A model generated the notes under the pieces. The model worked only from the letters and a program-made list of their open reading frames with translations, made no database searches and was not told where the DNA came from. Of a stretch of 64,000 bases of DNA, positions 13,717 through 25,902 are shown piece by piece. A program made the translations under genes and the position numbers. Origin of the DNA: Saccharopolyspora sp. NFXS83 (GTDB lineage Bacteria; Actinomycetota; Actinomycetes; Mycobacteriales; Pseudonocardiaceae); assembly GCF_026241095.1 (NCBI RefSeq), contig NZ_JAPFGB010000010.1:122883-186882 (forward strand). Reading direction: 5' to 3'. Each line of letters opens with the position of its first letter. The first letter of the stretch is position 1.

Positions 13717-14217
13717 TCAACTCACCTGCGGGCCGATGTTCCCGACGCGCACCGGGCCGTCGATCGCGCTCGGCCACGCCGCGCTGATGCCGCCGCGGGA
13801 CGGCAGGTCGAACGTGATCGAGGAGACCGGGGCCGGGGCGGACGACTCCGCGGGCGCCGCCACGTAGGCGACGCCGGGGTGCTGCTCGTCGATCGTGTAG
13901 GGCTGTGCGGACCCCGGCTCCGGGGAGATCACCTCGATGCCCTGCACCGTCTCGCCGTTGAAGAAGGTCAGGCCGGACGGCGCGCCCTCGACCGTGCAGG
14001 ACACCCCCGGCTTCGCCTCGAAGGTGATCGCGAACAGCCGGCCGTCGTTCGGCGCGTGGCCCTCGGTCACCGAGACGTTCAGATCGGTCGGCACGCACCG
14101 GGACGGCTCGGCGGGCGCCGCGGTGGCCGCGCCGGCGGTGAGCAGCGCACCGCCGCCGACCAGGGCGCTGAGCGCGGTCGCGGTGGCGGCGCGGCGGAAC
14201 TTCGACGAGATGGCCAT
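13717..14217 (-). CDS. Secreted DUF4232 protein
   Basis: A 166-aa protein with a signal peptide (residues about 1-33, ALSALVGGGALLTAGAATAAPAEP) and a DUF4232 domain: RCVPTDLNVSVTEGHAPNDG at the start, then FAITFEAKPGVSCTVEGAPSG and a C-terminal beta-strand region. DUF4232 is common in actinomycete exported and lipoproteins; no activity is known. The two Cys (in RCVPT and VSCTV) are the conserved pair. ATG at 14217 with GGAGCAACC upstream. It stands alone between the convergent CAP gene and the co-oriented TetR gene. Confidence 0.85.
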   Translation of the reverse strand: MAISSKFRRAATATALSALVGGGALLTAGAATAAPAEPSRCVPTDLNVSVTEGHAPNDGRLFAITFEAKPGVSCTVEGAPSGLTFFNGETVQGIEVISPEPGSAQPYTIDEQHPGVAYVAAPAESSAPAPVSSITFDLPSRGGISAAWPSAIDGPVRVGNIGPQVS

Positions 14218-20393: not shown

Positions 20394-21164
20394 TCAGGCC
20401 CGGACGTGGTCACCGAGCATCGGCCGCACCAGCTCCCGCAGGCGCCGCGACGGTTCGATGCCCAGCTCCCGGTCCAGCAGCTGCTCGTAGCGCCGGTAGT
20501 GGCGCAGCGCCTGCGCCGGGTTCGACTGCTTGAGCAGCACCTCCACCACCGCGCAGTGCGCGGTCTCGCGGAACGGTTCGACGACGGTCGCCGCCTGCGC
20601 GACCTCCAGCGCCGTCGCCAGCTGGCTGGACTGCACCAGCCGCTCCGCTGCGATCTCCAGCGCGTGCACCTGGAGCTGCTGGAGCCGTTCCCGCTCGGCC
20701 AGCACCCAGTCCTCGTACCAGCCGGGCAGCAGCGGGTCCTGCTTGGCCAGGGTGTGCCCGATCGCGGCCCAGTCCGCGATCGGCTCCACCGGGTCCTCCC
20801 GCAGCAACCGCTCCCCCGTGGACGTCAGCTCGTGCACGTCCACCGAGACCTGGCTCCCCAGCTCGATCTCCGCGCCGTTGCCGACGATGGCTCCCCCCAC
20901 CCGCCTGCGCACCCGCCACAGCGTGGTCCGCAGGTTCGCCAGCGCGCTCTGGTCGTCGTTGGCCGGCCACAGCGTCCCGGCGACGAGGTCCCGCTGCGTC
21001 CGCCCGCGCAGTGCCAGCAGCGCCAGCAGCCGCTGCCCGTTGCTGGAGACGGGCACCCCGGCGCCGTCGCAGTGCAGCGACCACCCACCGAGCAGTGCCA
21101 GCTGCAACCGCTCCACGGCGTGCGGCCGTGGGAGCGGGATCGGGCGCGCAGGTCCCTCGCTCAT
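20394..21164 (-). CDS. SARP-family transcriptional activator (BTAD domain)
   Basis: A 256-aa regulator of the Streptomyces antibiotic regulatory protein type. Residues about 20-95 form an OmpR-like winged helix (LQLALLGGWSLHCDGAGVPV, then LRGRTQRDLVAGTLWP and ALANLRTTLWRVRRRVGG). Residues about 100-250 are the BTAD helical domain (VSVDVHELTSTGERLL to YRRYEQLLDRELGIEPSRRL). There is no ATPase domain, so it is a small SARP. ATG at 21164 with AAGGGGGA upstream. It is the last gene of the minus-strand peptide locus. The three 11-bp-spaced heptamers upstream of the first peptide gene are an ideal target for it, which would make the locus self-activated (inference). Confidence 0.92.
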   Translation of the reverse strand: MSEGPARPIPLPRPHAVERLQLALLGGWSLHCDGAGVPVSSNGQRLLALLALRGRTQRDLVAGTLWPANDDQSALANLRTTLWRVRRRVGGAIVGNGAEIELGSQVSVDVHELTSTGERLLREDPVEPIADWAAIGHTLAKQDPLLPGWYEDWVLAERERLQQLQVHALEIAAERLVQSSQLATALEVAQAATVVEPFRETAHCAVVEVLLKQSNPAQALRHYRRYEQLLDRELGIEPSRRLRELVRPMLGDHVRA

Positions 21165-21280
21165 GGTTCCCCCTTCGTCCGGCAAAGACCGGCCGCACCC
21201 GAGGCGCAGCCTGTCACCGGTGGCGTCGCAGGCATGGCGGTGTGCCGTTACAGGCCTACGCACCGTGACAGATCCGCAGG

Positions 21281-22783
21281 TCACGAGGTGCGAAGGCCGA
21301 AGCGGTTGCGGGTGACCGGGGCGCGGTGGCGCGGCACGTGGCGGGGGTGTTTGCGGCGGTACCACTTGCCGATCTTGCTCCCGATGCGGATGACGAACGC
21401 GATACCGCCCATCCACGGCAGCAGCAGCACGAACAACGACAGGACTGCCACCAGCCCGATGAGCACGTGGCCCTGCTGGAATCCGGCGAGACCCCAGAGC
21501 CAGAACTCGTGCCCGCGCTCCAGCGCCGTGCCCAGGTACCGGGGCACCCGCACGAACAGCGTCAGCAAGGACAGGAACAGCACCGGCACCACGACCGCCA
21601 CCCAGCAGGTGACCAGCAACCGGACCTGGGGGCGCAGCCCCGCGCCGACCTGCTCCCCGGGCTGCTGCCTGCCGAGCAGCTTGCGCAGGAACGGCCGCAC
21701 GTGCGCGAACAGGTTCGGCACTCCCACCAGGTCACCGAGGATGTAGTAGCCGTCCAGCCGGATCAGCGGCAGCAGCTGCTGGAGCATCTGCATGTGGCTG
21801 AGCACGATGAACACCGCCAGCGGTGCGAAGCCCGTCGCCCAGAACAAACCGGCCATGACGAGGATGTAGATCGCGTTGAAGTACAACCCGCCCAGGTCGG
21901 TGCGCAACCGGCCGGCCCGGTCGAGCCGGTAGGCGTCGGTGACGTTGGTGTAGAACGCCGGGAAGATCAGCAGGATGCCGAAGCCGATCGCACCGGGCCG
22001 CCCACCGCCGTAGTGGCACCCGGCGGCGTGCCCGCTCTCGTGGAACAAGGTGGACGTGACGATCAGCAGGATCAGCATCAGCAGGTGCGCCGGGTCGCCC
22101 ACGGACGCTTGGAACGCCGGATCCAGCGAACCGGAGGCCACCAGCGCCACGTCCGCCACGACCATCGCGCACAGCACGCTGACCACGATGACCGGCTGGA
22201 ACAGCGGGGCCAGCACCGCGGCCAGCGCGCGCACCACGACCGCGGGCAGCAGGACGCCGCGCATCGCCAGCGAGATCAGCGGGTCCGCCCGCGGCGCCTC
22301 CGCCACCGGTTCGTCCAGCGCGGCCACGCCCAGCTTGTGCAGCTTGTCGCCGATCAGGAAACCCACCCCGGCCGCGGAGATCTGCGAGCCGCAGGCCGCG
22401 GTGACCCGTTCGGCGATCTCGCGCAGGTCTCGGTGTCCGTCGATCTGCGAGGCGACCAGGTAGAGCAGCTCGGACACCAGGATCATCTGCCCGTCGGCGC
22501 GGCCGATGAGGAAGCGCGGATCGGTGTACCCGGCGCCTTCGTACCGGCCGCACAGCTCGACGCCGTCCGCGAGCTGCGGCACGGAGCGCTCGTCCGCCTC
22601 GGCGAGCGGAGCGGGATCTCCGGGCGCGGCGGTGGCGGCCGGTGCTGCGGTCTCCCCGCTGGTGCGGGCCGCGTCCGGCCGGTCGGGTGCGGCGCCTTGC
22701 GCGGGCACGACGGGCAGAGCGGGCTCGGTGGGAAGGTCGGGTTCGGTGGGTGCTGCCTGCCCGACCTGGGGCGCTTCTGACAT
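21281..22783 (-). CDS. M50-type membrane zinc metalloprotease with PqqD-like N-terminal region
   Basis: A 500-aa protein of the putative peptide zinc metalloprotease type. Residues 1-70 are Pro/Ala-rich. Residues about 75-155 resemble PqqD/RiPP-recognition folds (PRFLIGRADGQMILVSELLY, DGHRDLREIAERV, GFLIGDKLHKLGV). Then come about eight to ten membrane segments. The HExxH zinc motif is HESGH at 248-252 in TLFHESGHAAGCHYGG, and the third ligand is probably D344 in LIRLDGYYILGD, as in site-2 proteases. ATG at 22783 with a GGAGGGG site. It directly follows three small peptide genes and precedes a SARP gene. I infer that it binds the peptides through the N-terminal region and cleaves or exports them. 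The fold assignment is by eye. Confidence 0.85.
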   Translation of the reverse strand: MSEAPQVGQAAPTEPDLPTEPALPVVPAQGAAPDRPDAARTSGETAAPAATAAPGDPAPLAEADERSVPQLADGVELCGRYEGAGYTDPRFLIGRADGQMILVSELLYLVASQIDGHRDLREIAERVTAACGSQISAAGVGFLIGDKLHKLGVAALDEPVAEAPRADPLISLAMRGVLLPAVVVRALAAVLAPLFQPVIVVSVLCAMVVADVALVASGSLDPAFQASVGDPAHLLMLILLIVTSTLFHESGHAAGCHYGGGRPGAIGFGILLIFPAFYTNVTDAYRLDRAGRLRTDLGGLYFNAIYILVMAGLFWATGFAPLAVFIVLSHMQMLQQLLPLIRLDGYYILGDLVGVPNLFAHVRPFLRKLLGRQQPGEQVGAGLRPQVRLLVTCWVAVVVPVLFLSLLTLFVRVPRYLGTALERGHEFWLWGLAGFQQGHVLIGLVAVLSLFVLLLPWMGGIAFVIRIGSKIGKWYRRKHPRHVPRHRAPVTRNRFGLRTS

Positions 22784-22801
22784 GGTTCCCCTCCAGGAAA
22801 A

Positions 22802-22837
22802 CCGGCCGGAGACGGAAGAGCTTCCGTCCCCGGCCGG
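22802..22837 (-). terminator. Long hairpin between third peptide gene and protease gene
   Basis: CCGGCCGG-A-GACGGAAG / CTTCCGTC-C-CCGGCCGG forms a 16-bp stem with one mismatch and a 2-nt loop. It lies in the 76-bp spacer upstream of the protease gene. It may partly terminate transcription or stabilise the peptide mRNA, giving far more peptide than protease. Confidence 0.65.
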
Positions 22838-22859
22838 CCGGCACGTCCGATATCCGCTT

Positions 22860-23027
22860 TTACTTTCCGTATCCGTACTGGTTGGCGAGCGCGAGGGCGT
22901 CACCACCGACGGCGGTCGCGACGGCGATGTTCACCGGCACGTTGACGTTGACGTTGACGAGGCCGCCGAGCGCCTCGCGGGCGGGCAGCAGCTCGGCCGG
23001 TTGCGCGGCCAGCTCCAAGCGGTCCAT
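22860..23027 (-). CDS. Small leader-type peptide 3 (55 aa)
   Basis: A 55-aa peptide gene with ATG at 23027 and a strong GAGGA site 5 nt upstream. It starts MDRLELAAQPAELLPAREAL, shares AELLPxREALGG with peptides 1 and 2, and ends with the related TAVGGDALALANQ. The segment after the GG is different: VNVNVNVPVNIAVATAV, a strictly alternating polar/hydrophobic strand, then an aromatic-Gly end (QYGYGK). There is no Cys and no Sec signal. The alternating tract recalls amyloid-forming strands and the VPVNV segment of chaplins, though chaplins have signal peptides and Cys. Product class unknown; RiPP-like precursor or surface peptide are possibilities. Confidence 0.8.
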   Translation of the reverse strand: MDRLELAAQPAELLPAREALGGLVNVNVNVPVNIAVATAVGGDALALANQYGYGK

Positions 23028-23046
23028 TGATCCTCCTCAGTGGTGT

Positions 23047-23085
23047 CCGGCCGTGCGCCGCTGGTTTTCAACGGCGCACGGCCGG
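23047..23085 (-). terminator. Hairpin between peptide genes 2 and 3
   Basis: A perfect 14-bp stem (CCGGCCGTGCGCCG / CGGCGCACGGCCGG) with an 11-nt loop fills the 76-bp spacer. Like the other spacers of this cassette, it has no U-tract, so mRNA stabilisation is as likely as termination. Confidence 0.65.
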
Positions 23086-23103
23086 GAACTCGGTCAGGAA
23101 AGG

Positions 23104-23289
23104 TCAGTCCTGGCTGAGGTCGATGTGCTGGTCGGCGTTGGCCTCGGCGTCGCCGCCGAGGGCGACGGCGGTGGCGGTGTTCTGCGCCGCCACCACGGCG
23201 AAGTACTCGTTGAAGTTGAGGCCGCCCAGCGCTTCGCGCTTCGGCAGCAGCTCGGCGGAGACTTGCAGTTCGGAGATCTCGAACTTCAC
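23104..23289 (-). CDS. Small leader-type peptide 2 (61 aa)
   Basis: A 61-aa peptide starting at GTG 23289 (MKFEISELQVSAELLPKREA) with AGGAG 7 nt upstream. Residues 1-23 look like an amphipathic leader ending in LGG; the rest (LNFNEYFAVVAAQNTATAVA, then LGGDAEANADQHIDLSQD) is nearly identical in layout to peptide 1. There is no Cys, few basic residues, no signal peptide, and an acidic C-terminus. The double-Gly end of the conserved block is like a leader cleavage site, but no C39 peptidase-transporter is present; the neighbouring M50 protease is the only candidate processing enzyme. Paralogous to peptides 1 and 3, suggesting local duplication. Confidence 0.85.
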   Translation of the reverse strand: MKFEISELQVSAELLPKREALGGLNFNEYFAVVAAQNTATAVALGGDAEANADQHIDLSQD

Positions 23290-23353
23290 GATGCGCTCCT
23301 ACGAAGTAGAGATGATGAGAACAGGTCGCGGCGTCGGCGCCGCGGGAAAGGTG

Positions 23354-23375
23354 CCTCGGGGCAGGGGCCCCGAGG
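23354..23375 (-). terminator. Hairpin between peptide genes 1 and 2
   Basis: A perfect 9-bp stem CCTCGGGGC / GCCCCGAGG with a 4-nt loop, with partial GGTG/CACC extension, in the 130-bp spacer between the two most similar peptide genes. Confidence 0.6.
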
Positions 23376-23419
23376 TCACCTCACGGCCCGGACCACGGAC
23401 TCGGTGGTCACGAACCAGG

Positions 23420-23608
23420 TCAGCCCTGGCCGAGGTCGATGTCCTGGTGGGCGTTGGCCTCGGCGTCGCCGCCGATGCCCACGGCGGTGGCGTTGTTCTC
23501 CGCGGCCACCACGGCGAAGTACTCGTTGAAGTTGAAGCCGCCCAGGGCCTCGCGCTTCGGCAGCAGCTCGGCGGACACTTCCAGCTCGGAGATCTCGAAA
23601 ACGCTCAC
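23420..23608 (-). CDS. Small leader-type peptide 1 (62 aa)
   Basis: A 62-aa peptide, the first of three. An ATG at 23623 is in frame, but the AGGAG at that ATG sits ideally for GTG 23608, and starting there gives MSVFEISELEVSAELLPKRE, which aligns end to end with peptide 2. After the conserved REALGG come FNFNEYFAVVAAENNATAVG and IGGDAEANAHQDIDLGQG. There is no Cys or signal peptide. The conserved columns across the three peptides are AELLPxREALGG, an Asn-rich start of the second half, and TAV...GGDAxAxAxQ. The SARP-like operator lies 81-109 bp upstream, so this promoter should drive the peptide-protease-SARP series. Confidence 0.85.
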   Translation of the reverse strand: MSVFEISELEVSAELLPKREALGGFNFNEYFAVVAAENNATAVGIGGDAEANAHQDIDLGQG

Positions 23609-23688
23609 GGTCGTACTCCTCATCGAGTTGACGAACTTTGTTGAACGGCGACGTTGTTCGCCGCTGCCGCGAAGTACGCCAGACCCGG

Positions 23689-23717
23689 CGTCACCGGCCC
23701 GTCACCCGTCCGTCACG
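23689..23717 (-). promoter_or_regulatory. SARP-type operator: three heptamers at 11-bp spacing
   Basis: CGTCACC (23689-23695), CGTCACC (23700-23706) and CGTCACG (23711-23717) start exactly 11 bp apart, one helical turn. On the coding (minus) strand they read GGTGACG. This is the typical architecture of SARP binding sites. It lies upstream of peptide gene 1; a possible -10 (TACTTC, 23676-23671) follows 12 bp after the last heptamer. Confidence 0.75.
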
Positions 23718-23824
23718 GTGCGCGGTCGGCACTCTGGTGGGCGACCGGCAGGGAGTGCTCGATCACCTGCGGTGAAATGTGCCGCTGTGCAGCGAAAATC
23801 GTGAGGAGTGGCCGGAAGACAACA

Positions 23825-23853
23825 GACCCGGCGACCGTCGTGGTCGCCGGGTC
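23825..23853 (-). terminator. Terminator after the response regulator gene
   Basis: A perfect 12-bp stem GACCCGGCGACC / GGTCGCCGGGTC with a 5-nt loop, followed on the minus strand by TGTTGTCTT. It separates the two-component genes from the peptide genes, which therefore need their own promoter. Confidence 0.8.
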
Positions 23854-23890
23854 GGGTGAATCGGGCGGGATCTTGCGGAAGGACCGCCGG

Positions 23891-24565
23891 TCAGTCCTGG
23901 GAGGCCTCGCCGTCGGCGTCCAGGCCGTGCTCGATGGCGTAGCGCGCCAGCTCGACGCGGTTGTGCAACTGGAGCTTGCGCAGCGTGGACTGCACGTGGT
24001 TCTCCACCGTCCGGTGCGAGATGACCAGCTTGTTCGCGATCTGCCGCGCGGTGAGGCCCTTCGCGACTTGGCGCAGCACCTCGGTCTCCCGGTCGGTGAG
24101 CTGCGGCGCCTGCGACTCCGCGCCCGGCGAGATCGCCATCCGCCGGTACTCGCCCAGCACCAGCCCGGCGAGGCCCGCGGTGAACACGGCGTCCCCGGCG
24201 GCGGTGCGGCGCACGGCGTCCACCAGCTCGTCCACCGAAGCGGACTTGACCAGGTAGCCGGAGGCGCCGGCCTTCACCGCCTCCAGCACGTCGCTGTGCT
24301 CGCCGCTGGCCGACAGCACCAGCACCCGCGTGCCGGGGATCTCCTGGGTGATCTGCCGGGAGGCGTCCACCCCGGAGGTGTCGCCGAGGTTGAGGTCCAT
24401 CAGCACCACGTCGGGCCGCACGGTCCGCGCGATGCGCAGCGCGGACACCGCGTCCCCGCTGGTGGCGCGGATCTCGAAGCCGCGTTCGGCGAGATCCCGC
24501 GACACCCCGTCGCGCCACATCGGGTGGTCGTCGACCACCATCACCGACACGTGCGGCTCGGTCAT
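23891..24565 (-). CDS. NarL/FixJ-type response regulator
   Basis: A 224-aa two-component regulator. The receiver domain has VVDDHPMWRDG at the N-terminus, the phospho-acceptor D57 in VVLMDLNLG, and the conserved Lys in GASGYLVKSAS. The C-terminal LuxR-type HTH (LTDRETEVLRQVAKGLTARQ, then NKLVISHRTVENHVQSTLRK) binds DNA. Its ATG overlaps the stop of the histidine kinase gene in an ATGA, so the pair is translationally coupled. It lies just upstream of the peptide cassette and is a candidate upstream trigger, although a terminator separates them. Other targets are equally possible; MacS/MacR-type systems of actinomycetes control envelope and morphology genes. Confidence 0.95.
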   Translation of the reverse strand: MTEPHVSVMVVDDHPMWRDGVSRDLAERGFEIRATSGDAVSALRIARTVRPDVVLMDLNLGDTSGVDASRQITQEIPGTRVLVLSASGEHSDVLEAVKAGASGYLVKSASVDELVDAVRRTAAGDAVFTAGLAGLVLGEYRRMAISPGAESQAPQLTDRETEVLRQVAKGLTARQIANKLVISHRTVENHVQSTLRKLQLHNRVELARYAIEHGLDADGEASQD

Positions 24566-25902
24566 CCTTCTCCTCCTCCGCGCGGTGCCGGGTCGGCTCG
24601 CTGGTCCTCCGGGTCCGTCCGTTCGGATCCCGGCGGTGGCTCGGGCTGCGGGTCCGCGATGTCCGGGTGGGCGGCCGGTGCCGTCCGCCGGGTGAACATC
24701 CGCTTCGCCGCCGTTCTCGTCCGCCCGCCCGCCGCCCGGCCGGGCGGCGTGTTCGGGCGCGGTAACCGGATCTCCCACTCGGTGCCCTCGCCCGGAGTGG
24801 TGTCCAGGGCGATCGTGCCGCCGAGGTGGTCGACCCGGCCGCGGATGGATTGGGCCACGCCCATGCGTCCCTCCGCCGCCGCCTCGTCCAGCCTGCCTTC
24901 GGCGATGCCCGGTCCATCGTCCCGGACACTGATCACGATCTCGTTCGGCAGCTCTTCGAGCAAGACCCAGGCGCGGGCATCCGGTCCCGCGTGCCGGTCC
25001 GCGTTCTCCAACGCCTCCCGCACGATCGAGAGCACGTCGGATCCGATCTGCTCCGGCAACCGGACCTCGGTGGCCGGGACCGACACCTGGACCTTGCCGG
25101 TGCGCAGCACCTGGAGGCGGGCGACCAGGTCGATCTCGCCGCCCGGATCGTGGTCCGGCGGCCCGGCCGCCACCAGCGAGCGCAGCGCGATCTCCTGCTC
25201 CCCGGCGAGCCGGGCGAGCTCGGCGGCCTCGCCGCCCATCTCGACGCCGCGGTTGCGCACCCGCGCCAGCACTTGCAGCACGCTGTCGTGGATGGAGCGG
25301 GCGAGGCGTTCCCGCTCGGCGGTCGCCGCCTCGGTGCGCAACGCCTGGCTGAGCCGCTCGGTGGAGCTGCGGGCGGTGTCGGCGGCCAGGCCGAACAGCA
25401 GGCCGCAGCCGATCAAGAGCACGGCGTCCTGGAACATCAGCGGTTCGACGCTGTCCCGGATCAGGAAGTTGATCAGTGCCGAGACCGCGCCGGACACGCC
25501 ACCGCCGAGCCAGCCCCACTGCACCGCCGCCAGCGTCACCATCGACGGCTGCCACATGGTGGTCACCGAGGGGATGAGCGCGTTCATCTGCTCCTCGGTC
25601 ATGATCAGCTCGTTGCCGAGGAACAGCGCGGAGATCAGCACCTGGTCGACGAGCACCAGCGCGTTCGTCCGGCCCTCCCGGTGCCGGAACCGCCACACGG
25701 TGAACACGGTCCAGCCGATCATGATCACGAGTTCGAGGGCCGCCAGCGCCGGTCGCGCGTAGTGCGGGACCTGCATCCCGAACCACACGATCGCGTAAAC
25801 GAGCCCGACGGAGCGGAAGAAGTTGTGCGCGCGCCACAACGGTGAGCGTCCATCGGCGACGCGGGGGCGTTGTGGTGGCGAGGTGGACTTCGGCATGGCC
25901 AC
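24562..25902 (-). CDS. MacS-type membrane histidine kinase
   Basis: A 446-aa sensor kinase. About five or six membrane segments occupy residues 30-180 (the MacS/DUF5931 sensor region, starting PLWRAHNFFRSVGLVYAIVW). The dimerisation/phospho-acceptor helix is RLARSIHDSVLQVLARVRNR with H205, of the HisKA_3 type. The HATPase domain follows (IVREALENADRHA, N box; ISVRDDGPGIAEGRLD, G1; RMGVAQSIRGRVDHLGG, G2). A Pro-rich cytoplasmic tail of about 60 residues ends the protein. I choose GTG 25902 because GGAAGGAG lies 5-6 nt upstream; ATG 25896 is also possible. It overlaps its response regulator by 4 nt. Confidence 0.93.
   Translation of the reverse strand: MAMPKSTSPPQRPRVADGRSPLWRAHNFFRSVGLVYAIVWFGMQVPHYARPALAALELVIMIGWTVFTVWRFRHREGRTNALVLVDQVLISALFLGNELIMTEEQMNALIPSVTTMWQPSMVTLAAVQWGWLGGGVSGAVSALINFLIRDSVEPLMFQDAVLLIGCGLLFGLAADTARSSTERLSQALRTEAATAERERLARSIHDSVLQVLARVRNRGVEMGGEAAELARLAGEQEIALRSLVAAGPPDHDPGGEIDLVARLQVLRTGKVQVSVPATEVRLPEQIGSDVLSIVREALENADRHAGPDARAWVLLEELPNEIVISVRDDGPGIAEGRLDEAAAEGRMGVAQSIRGRVDHLGGTIALDTTPGEGTEWEIRLPRPNTPPGRAAGGRTRTAAKRMFTRRTAPAAHPDIADPQPEPPPGSERTDPEDQRADPAPRGGGEG

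Follow-up and report, generated by a model that had tools for sequence, protein, structure and literature searches.

Tandem leader peptides beside an RRE-type site-2 protease in actinobacteria: a candidate system for surface assembly

Short leader-bearing peptides and a membrane protease are encoded side by side in a 64,000-nucleotide stretch of the soil actinomycete Saccharopolyspora sp. NFXS83 (contig NZ_JAPFGB010000010.1, positions 122,883 to 186,882; the whole stretch is referred to here as the window), and the same pairing recurs across the actinobacteria. On balance we favour the view that the protease cuts the leader off precursors of the AELLPxREALGG type and that the released tails, rich in β-strand, form an assembly at the cell surface. 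Five features lead to this reading: the peptides lack signals, constant leaders precede variable tails, the genes lie side by side, ABC ATPases are few nearby, and partner proteins match the tails. The elements concerned are the following, where RRE stands for the recognition element of ribosomally synthesised and post-translationally modified peptides (RiPPs):

23420 to 23608, minus strand: P1, precursor peptide of leader and tail, 62 amino acids, GTG start (an ATG five codons upstream is possible); orthologues at L033 11131-11319 and L034 8179-8367.
23104 to 23289, minus strand: P2, a paralogue of P1 by sequence comparison, 61 amino acids.
22860 to 23027, minus strand: P3, a divergent paralogue of 55 amino acids with the tail VNVNVNVPVNIAVATAVGGDALALANQ.
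21281 to 22783, minus strand: RRE-M50 (site-2-type) membrane protease, 500 amino acids; NF041824 E=1e-30, below cutoff.
22268 to 22576, minus strand: predicted RRE (PqqD-like) domain, protease residues 70-172, from a structure model.
22028 to 22042, minus strand: HESGH zinc motif, residues 248-252; H248, E249, G251 and H252 invariant in 20/20 aligned relatives.
21749 to 21754, minus strand: distal Asp-Gly, D344 and G345, invariant in 20/20 aligned relatives.

The three tandem open reading frames share AELLP(K/A)REALGG and a second block, and the protease with its HESGH motif lies next to them; all of this had been described in a first-pass annotation of the DNA, as had the absence of cysteine from the window peptides. 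A purine-rich ribosome site precedes each peptide gene (ATGAGGAGTACGACC, GTAGGAGCGCATC and TGAGGAGGATCA), the C-terminal residues are G, D and K, and no Pfam family matches P1, P2 or P3. The full set of three is present in all five same-genus genomes fetched (L033-L037). Compared with its orthologue in genome G120, P3 has 0 non-synonymous and 7 synonymous codon differences, and in P1 and P2 the differences are confined to the tail (3 and 8 residues, respectively). Against genome G137, P1 shows 12 non-synonymous and 2 synonymous differences and P2 shows 16 and 5, an excess of non-synonymous change which indicates that the tails of P1 and P2 evolve fast.

The first-pass annotation had rested its proposal on peptides and protease occurring together, and they do. 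The neighbourhood sample comprised 34 stretches from family genomes and 79 named loci (best 80 of 538 confirmed candidates); a purpose-made gene caller recognised 116 protease genes there, spread over 111 of the 114 loci obtained when the window is counted in. A peptide gene with the loose motif lies within 4 kb of 113 of the 116 proteases, 109 times upstream on the same strand, the proteases not being independent, since at least seven named loci duplicate genomes already in the sample (L066/L037, L073/L038, L069/L039, L078/L041, L114/L043, L144/L048 and L141/L060). Among short genes (at most 150 amino acids), a strict leader regular expression is matched by 218/423 at no more than 2.5 kb from a protease as against 10/163 beyond 4 kb, and a loose one by 228/423 and 17/163; the enrichment close to the protease under both expressions shows the pairing to be above chance.

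Matches to the protease were found in 27/150 family genomes, 83/394 class genomes and 46/296 phylum genomes, those weaker than about 1e-30 being possibly other M50 proteases. Named hosts include Saccharopolyspora, Streptomyces, Streptacidiphilus, Kribbella, Amycolatopsis, Pseudonocardia, Rubrobacteraceae, Thermoleophilia, Acidimicrobiia and one Chloroflexi bin; a viral origin was rejected, a single-protein query having found no relative in viral contigs. The number of peptides per module ranges from one to at least four.

Modules elsewhere have layouts of their own. The NFXS83 genome itself carries a second one (L003:10254-14607, G000:C70), with an RRE-M50 protease 41% identical to the first and two peptides with a VEFLPAR leader and glycine-rich tails, which lie on opposite strands with a secreted PGRS-like protein between them. 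In Gandjariella (L041:4065-13161) three tandem peptide-protease units are accompanied by a SARP and by a partner which has lost the cysteines from its first repeat. In Streptomyces (L084 4242-5056 and about 34 other loci) a conserved helix-turn-helix regulator and an 86-91-residue protein of unknown function are encoded ahead of the module, and the peptides come in regular pairs of 71 and 72 residues.

Leaders typically end in ELLPxRxxL, with variants such as QLPDREQM and ALPDKEVY; in 38 aligned peptides the L, P and R of the L-P-x-R motif are invariant and the tails variable. Most tails are alternating β-strand sequences, others are PGRS-like, and a few belong to other types. Among 218 distinct tails, picked by a loose regular expression and in 211 cases near a protease, 151 are of the type N-x-A-x-A…A-x-A-x-Q, where 15 were expected after shuffling. 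Tails that are not glycine-rich show strong β periodicity (z +6.7) and a helical periodicity below that of shuffled sequences (z -2.3), and the tails of P1 to P3 follow the same trend (n=3; z 3.8 at 170° and -1.9 at 100°). A simple hydrophobic count found no membrane- or signal-like stretch in any of the 218 leaders or tails, and no curlin-type Pfam family was found in P1-P3 or in three relatives with tandem tails. The leader motif is followed by SL in 67 of the 218 tails, GR in 49 and GG in 25, so cleavage at ALGG, as first proposed, does not hold as a general rule.

Proteins that resemble the tails are encoded next to many of the proteases. One such family, here called CxxC partners, has 51 members and lies directly 3' of the protease in 47 loci; the N-termini are signal-like by eye, and the repeat, N-x-A-x-A-x-N…C-x-x-C…A-x-A-x-Q, is similar to the tails. 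A profile built from 84 tails, taken without regard to motif, was used to search the 1,604 proteins encoded in the loci and, beyond leader peptides and open reading frames of up to 89 amino acids, matched five proteins at E<=0.05, every one of them CxxC (three free partners and two C-terminal fusions to proteases; E 8e-4 to 0.049); the best E on reversed sequences was 0.078, and the remaining CxxC proteins lie above 0.05. Profile-profile comparison of tails and partners gave a weak signal (16.8%, score 22.3, against 14.6 reversed and at most 14.2 for 30 column-shuffled profiles). An hhalign figure of 75% was set aside as circular, both sides having been chosen by regular expression; the motif-independent profiles are weaker. 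In five loci (L045, L046, L047, L049 and L065) proteases of 742-801 amino acids carry the CxxC domain at their own C-terminus, and these adjoin a peptide of 211-219 residues with two tail repeats. For one CxxC partner, residues 31-170 are predicted with high confidence (predicted local distance difference test, pLDDT, 92-98) as three two-strand repeats and a helical hairpin; the model has no PDB match at E 0.001, and its weak, non-significant matches include several β-solenoids or fibrils, among them SufB, ice-binding proteins, CsgA and FapC.

Modules with glycine-rich tails have a different partner, either a secreted protein that is itself rich in Gly or a lipoprotein that combines a lipobox, a PGRS-like linker and DUF2807. 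Adhesin-type DUF2807 lipoproteins stand beside the protease and glycine-rich peptides in L048, L050, L057, L058, L062 and L143, and the two that were scanned match PF10988 (7.6e-26 in L048, 3.7e-28 in L143); two Gly-rich partner proteins scanned match no Pfam family. Partner type thus follows tail type: CxxC partners occur in 51/96 loci with N-x-A or other tails as against 0/17 glycine loci, and Gly-protein partners in 13/17 glycine loci as against 4/96 of the others, counts in which related genomes are each included and events are not independent. The glycine-partner rows of L058 and L062 rest on peptide fragments, although both loci have a Gly-linker lipoprotein with its start called short; L050 was counted as lacking a Gly partner and has a lipoprotein of the same kind, its start likewise called short. 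Eight loci from other lineages contain an additional following gene, and a lipobox can be recognised in several of the encoded proteins. No partner was found among the window genes at 10000-36000, and the genome of NFXS83 is without the CxxC family. Small secreted proteins, related to one another, lie near both modules of this genome: the one at window positions 13717-14217 is DUF4232-like, below cutoff, and the other (L003 9463-9963) is directly 3' of the second module's protease.

The HExxH motif, the distal Asp and several membrane passes, the last judged by eye, are features of site-2 (M50) proteases, and we take Asp-Gly 344-345 to be the position of their third zinc ligand. The window protease matches no Pfam family above cutoff, and Pfam M50 falls below cutoff on two relatives; its nearest named relative, at 85% identity, is in Saccharopolyspora gloriosae. 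An RRE-like fold is predicted at the N-terminus (residues 70-158), as the first-pass annotation had suggested from a resemblance to PqqD: an AlphaFold model has pLDDT 87.7 and a predicted template modelling score of 0.80, and its top Foldseek match is a lasso-peptide RRE solved with its leader (E 0.018), with the top hits, all lasso RREs, at E >0.001 and an unrelated winged helix tying by Z. In Kribbella and relatives (L083:5941-8310, P0059-P0066) the C-terminus of the RRE-M50 protease continues into a MinD/ParA-like ATPase (PF13614, PF01656), possibly an energy or positioning module.

A mechanism in keeping with these features would begin with ribosomal peptides that have no secretion signal being captured through their leader at the RRE of the protease. 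The HExxH centre would cut the leader off the apparently unmodified peptide, and the protease would itself export the tail or take part in its export, as has been proposed for EpeP (PMC10885120). Outside the cell β-strand or glycine-rich tails would self-assemble, with the partner, where encoded, offering a matching surface, and the SARP would time expression. One set of genes is not accounted for by this proposal: leaderless open reading frames in L098 (66 amino acids, E 6e-4), L085 (75) and L079 (80) match the tail profile. In these short frames (L079:5540-5782, L085:1837-2064 and L098:2894-3094; 66-80 amino acids) a basic N-terminus replaces the leader and is followed by a tail-like stretch; their products perhaps act in the cytoplasm, as a chaperone for the tails or as a decoy.

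The alternative that survives best, though we regard it as unlikely, is that the peptides are antimicrobial or RiPP precursors, matured in the way MpaP acts on daptides or EpeP on epipeptides, with the enzymes or the transporter encoded elsewhere in the genome. The protease does resemble both families (NF041824 at 1e-30 and NF058609 at 1e-12), and MpaP is its nearest known relative: daptides also combine a site-2 protease bearing an N-terminal RRE with several short leader peptides, and the class was itself found through such fusions (PMC10036551). The match reaches 107.2 bits against a cutoff of 300, however, the leader here is ELLPxREAL rather than ELExMEAP, and the invariant C-terminal Thr of daptides is absent (PMC10036551). 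Neither a recurrent ABC transporter nor daptide enzymes were seen, and the daptide ABC transporter and Dmp-forming enzymes are missing among the window genes scanned; the tails are β-strand repeats or glycine-rich, and partners carry matching repeats. EpeP (YydH), likewise an M50 protease of the membrane, cleaves off a leader and is proposed to assist export (PMC10885120), but the window protease scores 48.1 of 225 bits, has no radical SAM gene seen beside it and carries an RRE-like domain.

The first-pass statement that no known RiPP class fits has to be qualified in one respect, the fusion of an RRE to a site-2 protease being already known from daptides (PMC10036551). As an RRE-dependent RiPP, the locus has precursors with constant leader and variable core and, as a prediction, an RRE; no modification enzyme was found among the window genes scanned. 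In line with the first-pass annotation, these include neither a modifying enzyme nor an ABC transporter, nor any radical SAM family; two of ten had no family at E 1e-5. Those outside the module are unremarkable and encode an acyl-CoA oxidase, a CAP protein, a TetR, a glutaredoxin, a DUF2339 protein, a PEP-utilising enzyme, two GGDEF proteins, an AI-2E-type transporter, a GT87 and the two proteins without family. An ABC ATPase motif (regular expression) occurs within three genes of 1/116 proteases. In relatives, the neighbour clusters scanned (ten recurrent and 28 rarer, of 174 listed) contain no recurrent modifying enzyme, the rest of the genome not having been searched for such enzymes: the ten recurrent clusters are regulators, MacS, a Bax-inhibitor-like protein, oxidoreductases of some relatives, a transposase fragment and unknowns, and no RiPP enzyme appears among 25 of the 49 families listed for the 28 rarer ones.

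The lack of a recurrent enzyme or transporter nearby speaks against an antimicrobial or RiPP precursor, as do the tails themselves: those that are not glycine-rich are acidic on average (net -2.1), 48/84 of them have neither Lys nor Arg, and their helical periodicity is below shuffled. Tails with at least 25% Gly, and partners matching their repeats, would be unexpected for bacteriocins. The 71- and 72-residue pairs of Streptomyces do recall two-peptide bacteriocins, and the speed at which the tails of P1 and P2 change could likewise reflect an arms race. Among the products first considered, tail sequence and matching secreted partners favour a surface structure over an antimicrobial or a signal.

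The module is flanked by regulators:

20394 to 21164, minus strand: SARP-family regulator, BTAD E=2.8e-17; travels with the module.
23891 to 24565, minus strand: response regulator of the MacRS pair; flanking, probably outside the module.
24562 to 25899, minus strand: MacS sensor kinase, NF047322 452 bits (cutoff 300); flanking, probably outside the module.

Transcription on the minus strand (20394-25899) runs from the MacS kinase through the response regulator, P1, P2, P3 and the M50 protease to the SARP. The annotation had correctly placed a SARP at the locus and a histidine kinase with response regulator upstream, and had counted all as part of it. Its link to the SARP is borne out: with families defined by BLAST linkage, SARP relatives occur in 24 loci of four genera (Saccharopolyspora, Amycolatopsis, Gandjariella and Kribbella), six of them without MacS (two each in Gandjariella, Amycolatopsis and Kribbella), and MacS occurs in 18, each with a SARP. 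The two-component pair, by contrast, was rejected as part of the module: MacS relatives of at least 271 bits are present in 37/40 family genomes as against 27/150 for the protease, and in genome G017 the two lie on different contigs. The SARP therefore belongs with the module, and in Saccharopolyspora MacRS is its conserved neighbour. According to a review, MacRS in Streptomyces has effects on antibiotics and on genes for morphogenesis (PMC10345050); control of the peptides by MacR was rejected, as the MacR box gave 0 matches in the window at up to 3 mismatches. These observations bear on a second alternative, that the peptides are secreted pheromones freed by the protease and sensed, perhaps, by MacS, with the SARP as output. 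The SARP's company in four genera and the adjoining pair in Saccharopolyspora agree with it, but MacS is found in nearly the whole family, well beyond the genomes with the module, and the tails are repetitive, differ widely in both size and make-up and correspond to the type of partner; we consider it very improbable. Slightly less probable still is that the protease acts as a regulatory site-2 protease on other membrane proteins, with the peptides as regulators or RRE baits, for although site-2 proteases often act in regulated proteolysis and no other part of the peptides is as constant as the leader, modules have one to at least four peptides, the P3 tail is conserved, tails match partner type, and the tail repeat recurs in the CxxC domain that some proteases carry as a fusion.

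The first-pass interpretation is thus partly supported, and the surface assembly that we favour invites comparison with known matrices. Curli (CsgA/CsgB) are built of short strand-turn-strand repeats with alternating Asn/Gln and Ala/Val, as small subunits with a nucleator; the peptides here have such repeats and alternation, and accompany a related protein that could nucleate. They differ in having no curlin Pfam match, in being single-repeat peptides with a leader and an RRE protease, and in their Gram-positive hosts. As to cross-β fibres, what was observed is the β periodicity of the tails (z +6.7) and the weak solenoid-like matches of the partner model. The Gly-Gly-Asx-rich tails of one peptide branch and its partners resemble PE_PGRS proteins, but stand behind an ELLPAR leader and beside an RRE protease. 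Chaplins match PF03777 and have Sec signals, whereas the window peptides have no Pfam match and no signal-like stretch was counted in them; one search for PF03777 gave 0 matches in the genome of NFXS83 and was positive in 15/98 class genomes. Chaplins, rodlins and SapB are otherwise comparable, being small secreted surface-active or amyloid actinomycete proteins, some in paralogous sets (PMC4255298).

We found no description of the peptide-protease pair in the open PMC literature, a scope beyond which lie subscription papers and most preprints. Term searches of RRE-Finder (PMC7470986) and of RRE papers of 2025 (PMC12710340) and 2026 (PMC13381572) gave no occurrence of M50; a 2026 preprint on TMcin of Staphylococcus (PMC13252029) describes another site-2-type leader protease, with an ABC transporter.

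A broader and distinctly more tentative proposal is of a phylum-wide RRE-site-2-protease system in which leader-tagged one-repeat β-arch or polyglycine bricks are cut, released and then polymerise on a dedicated nucleator, secreted or lipid-anchored, that carries their repeat, a logic like that of curli arrived at along a RiPP-like path; equally tentative is the further element that neither Sec, an ABC transporter nor chemical modification takes part in the release. Genome mining for antibiotics makes use of RRE domains and leader peptides, and if surface assembly is correct, part of the orphan RRE-protease hits would be surface-assembly loci. An export route would also be suggested, with the site-2 protease as the sole membrane component encoded nearby, and the actinobacteria would possess, in addition to chaplins, an extracellular matrix system of wide distribution.

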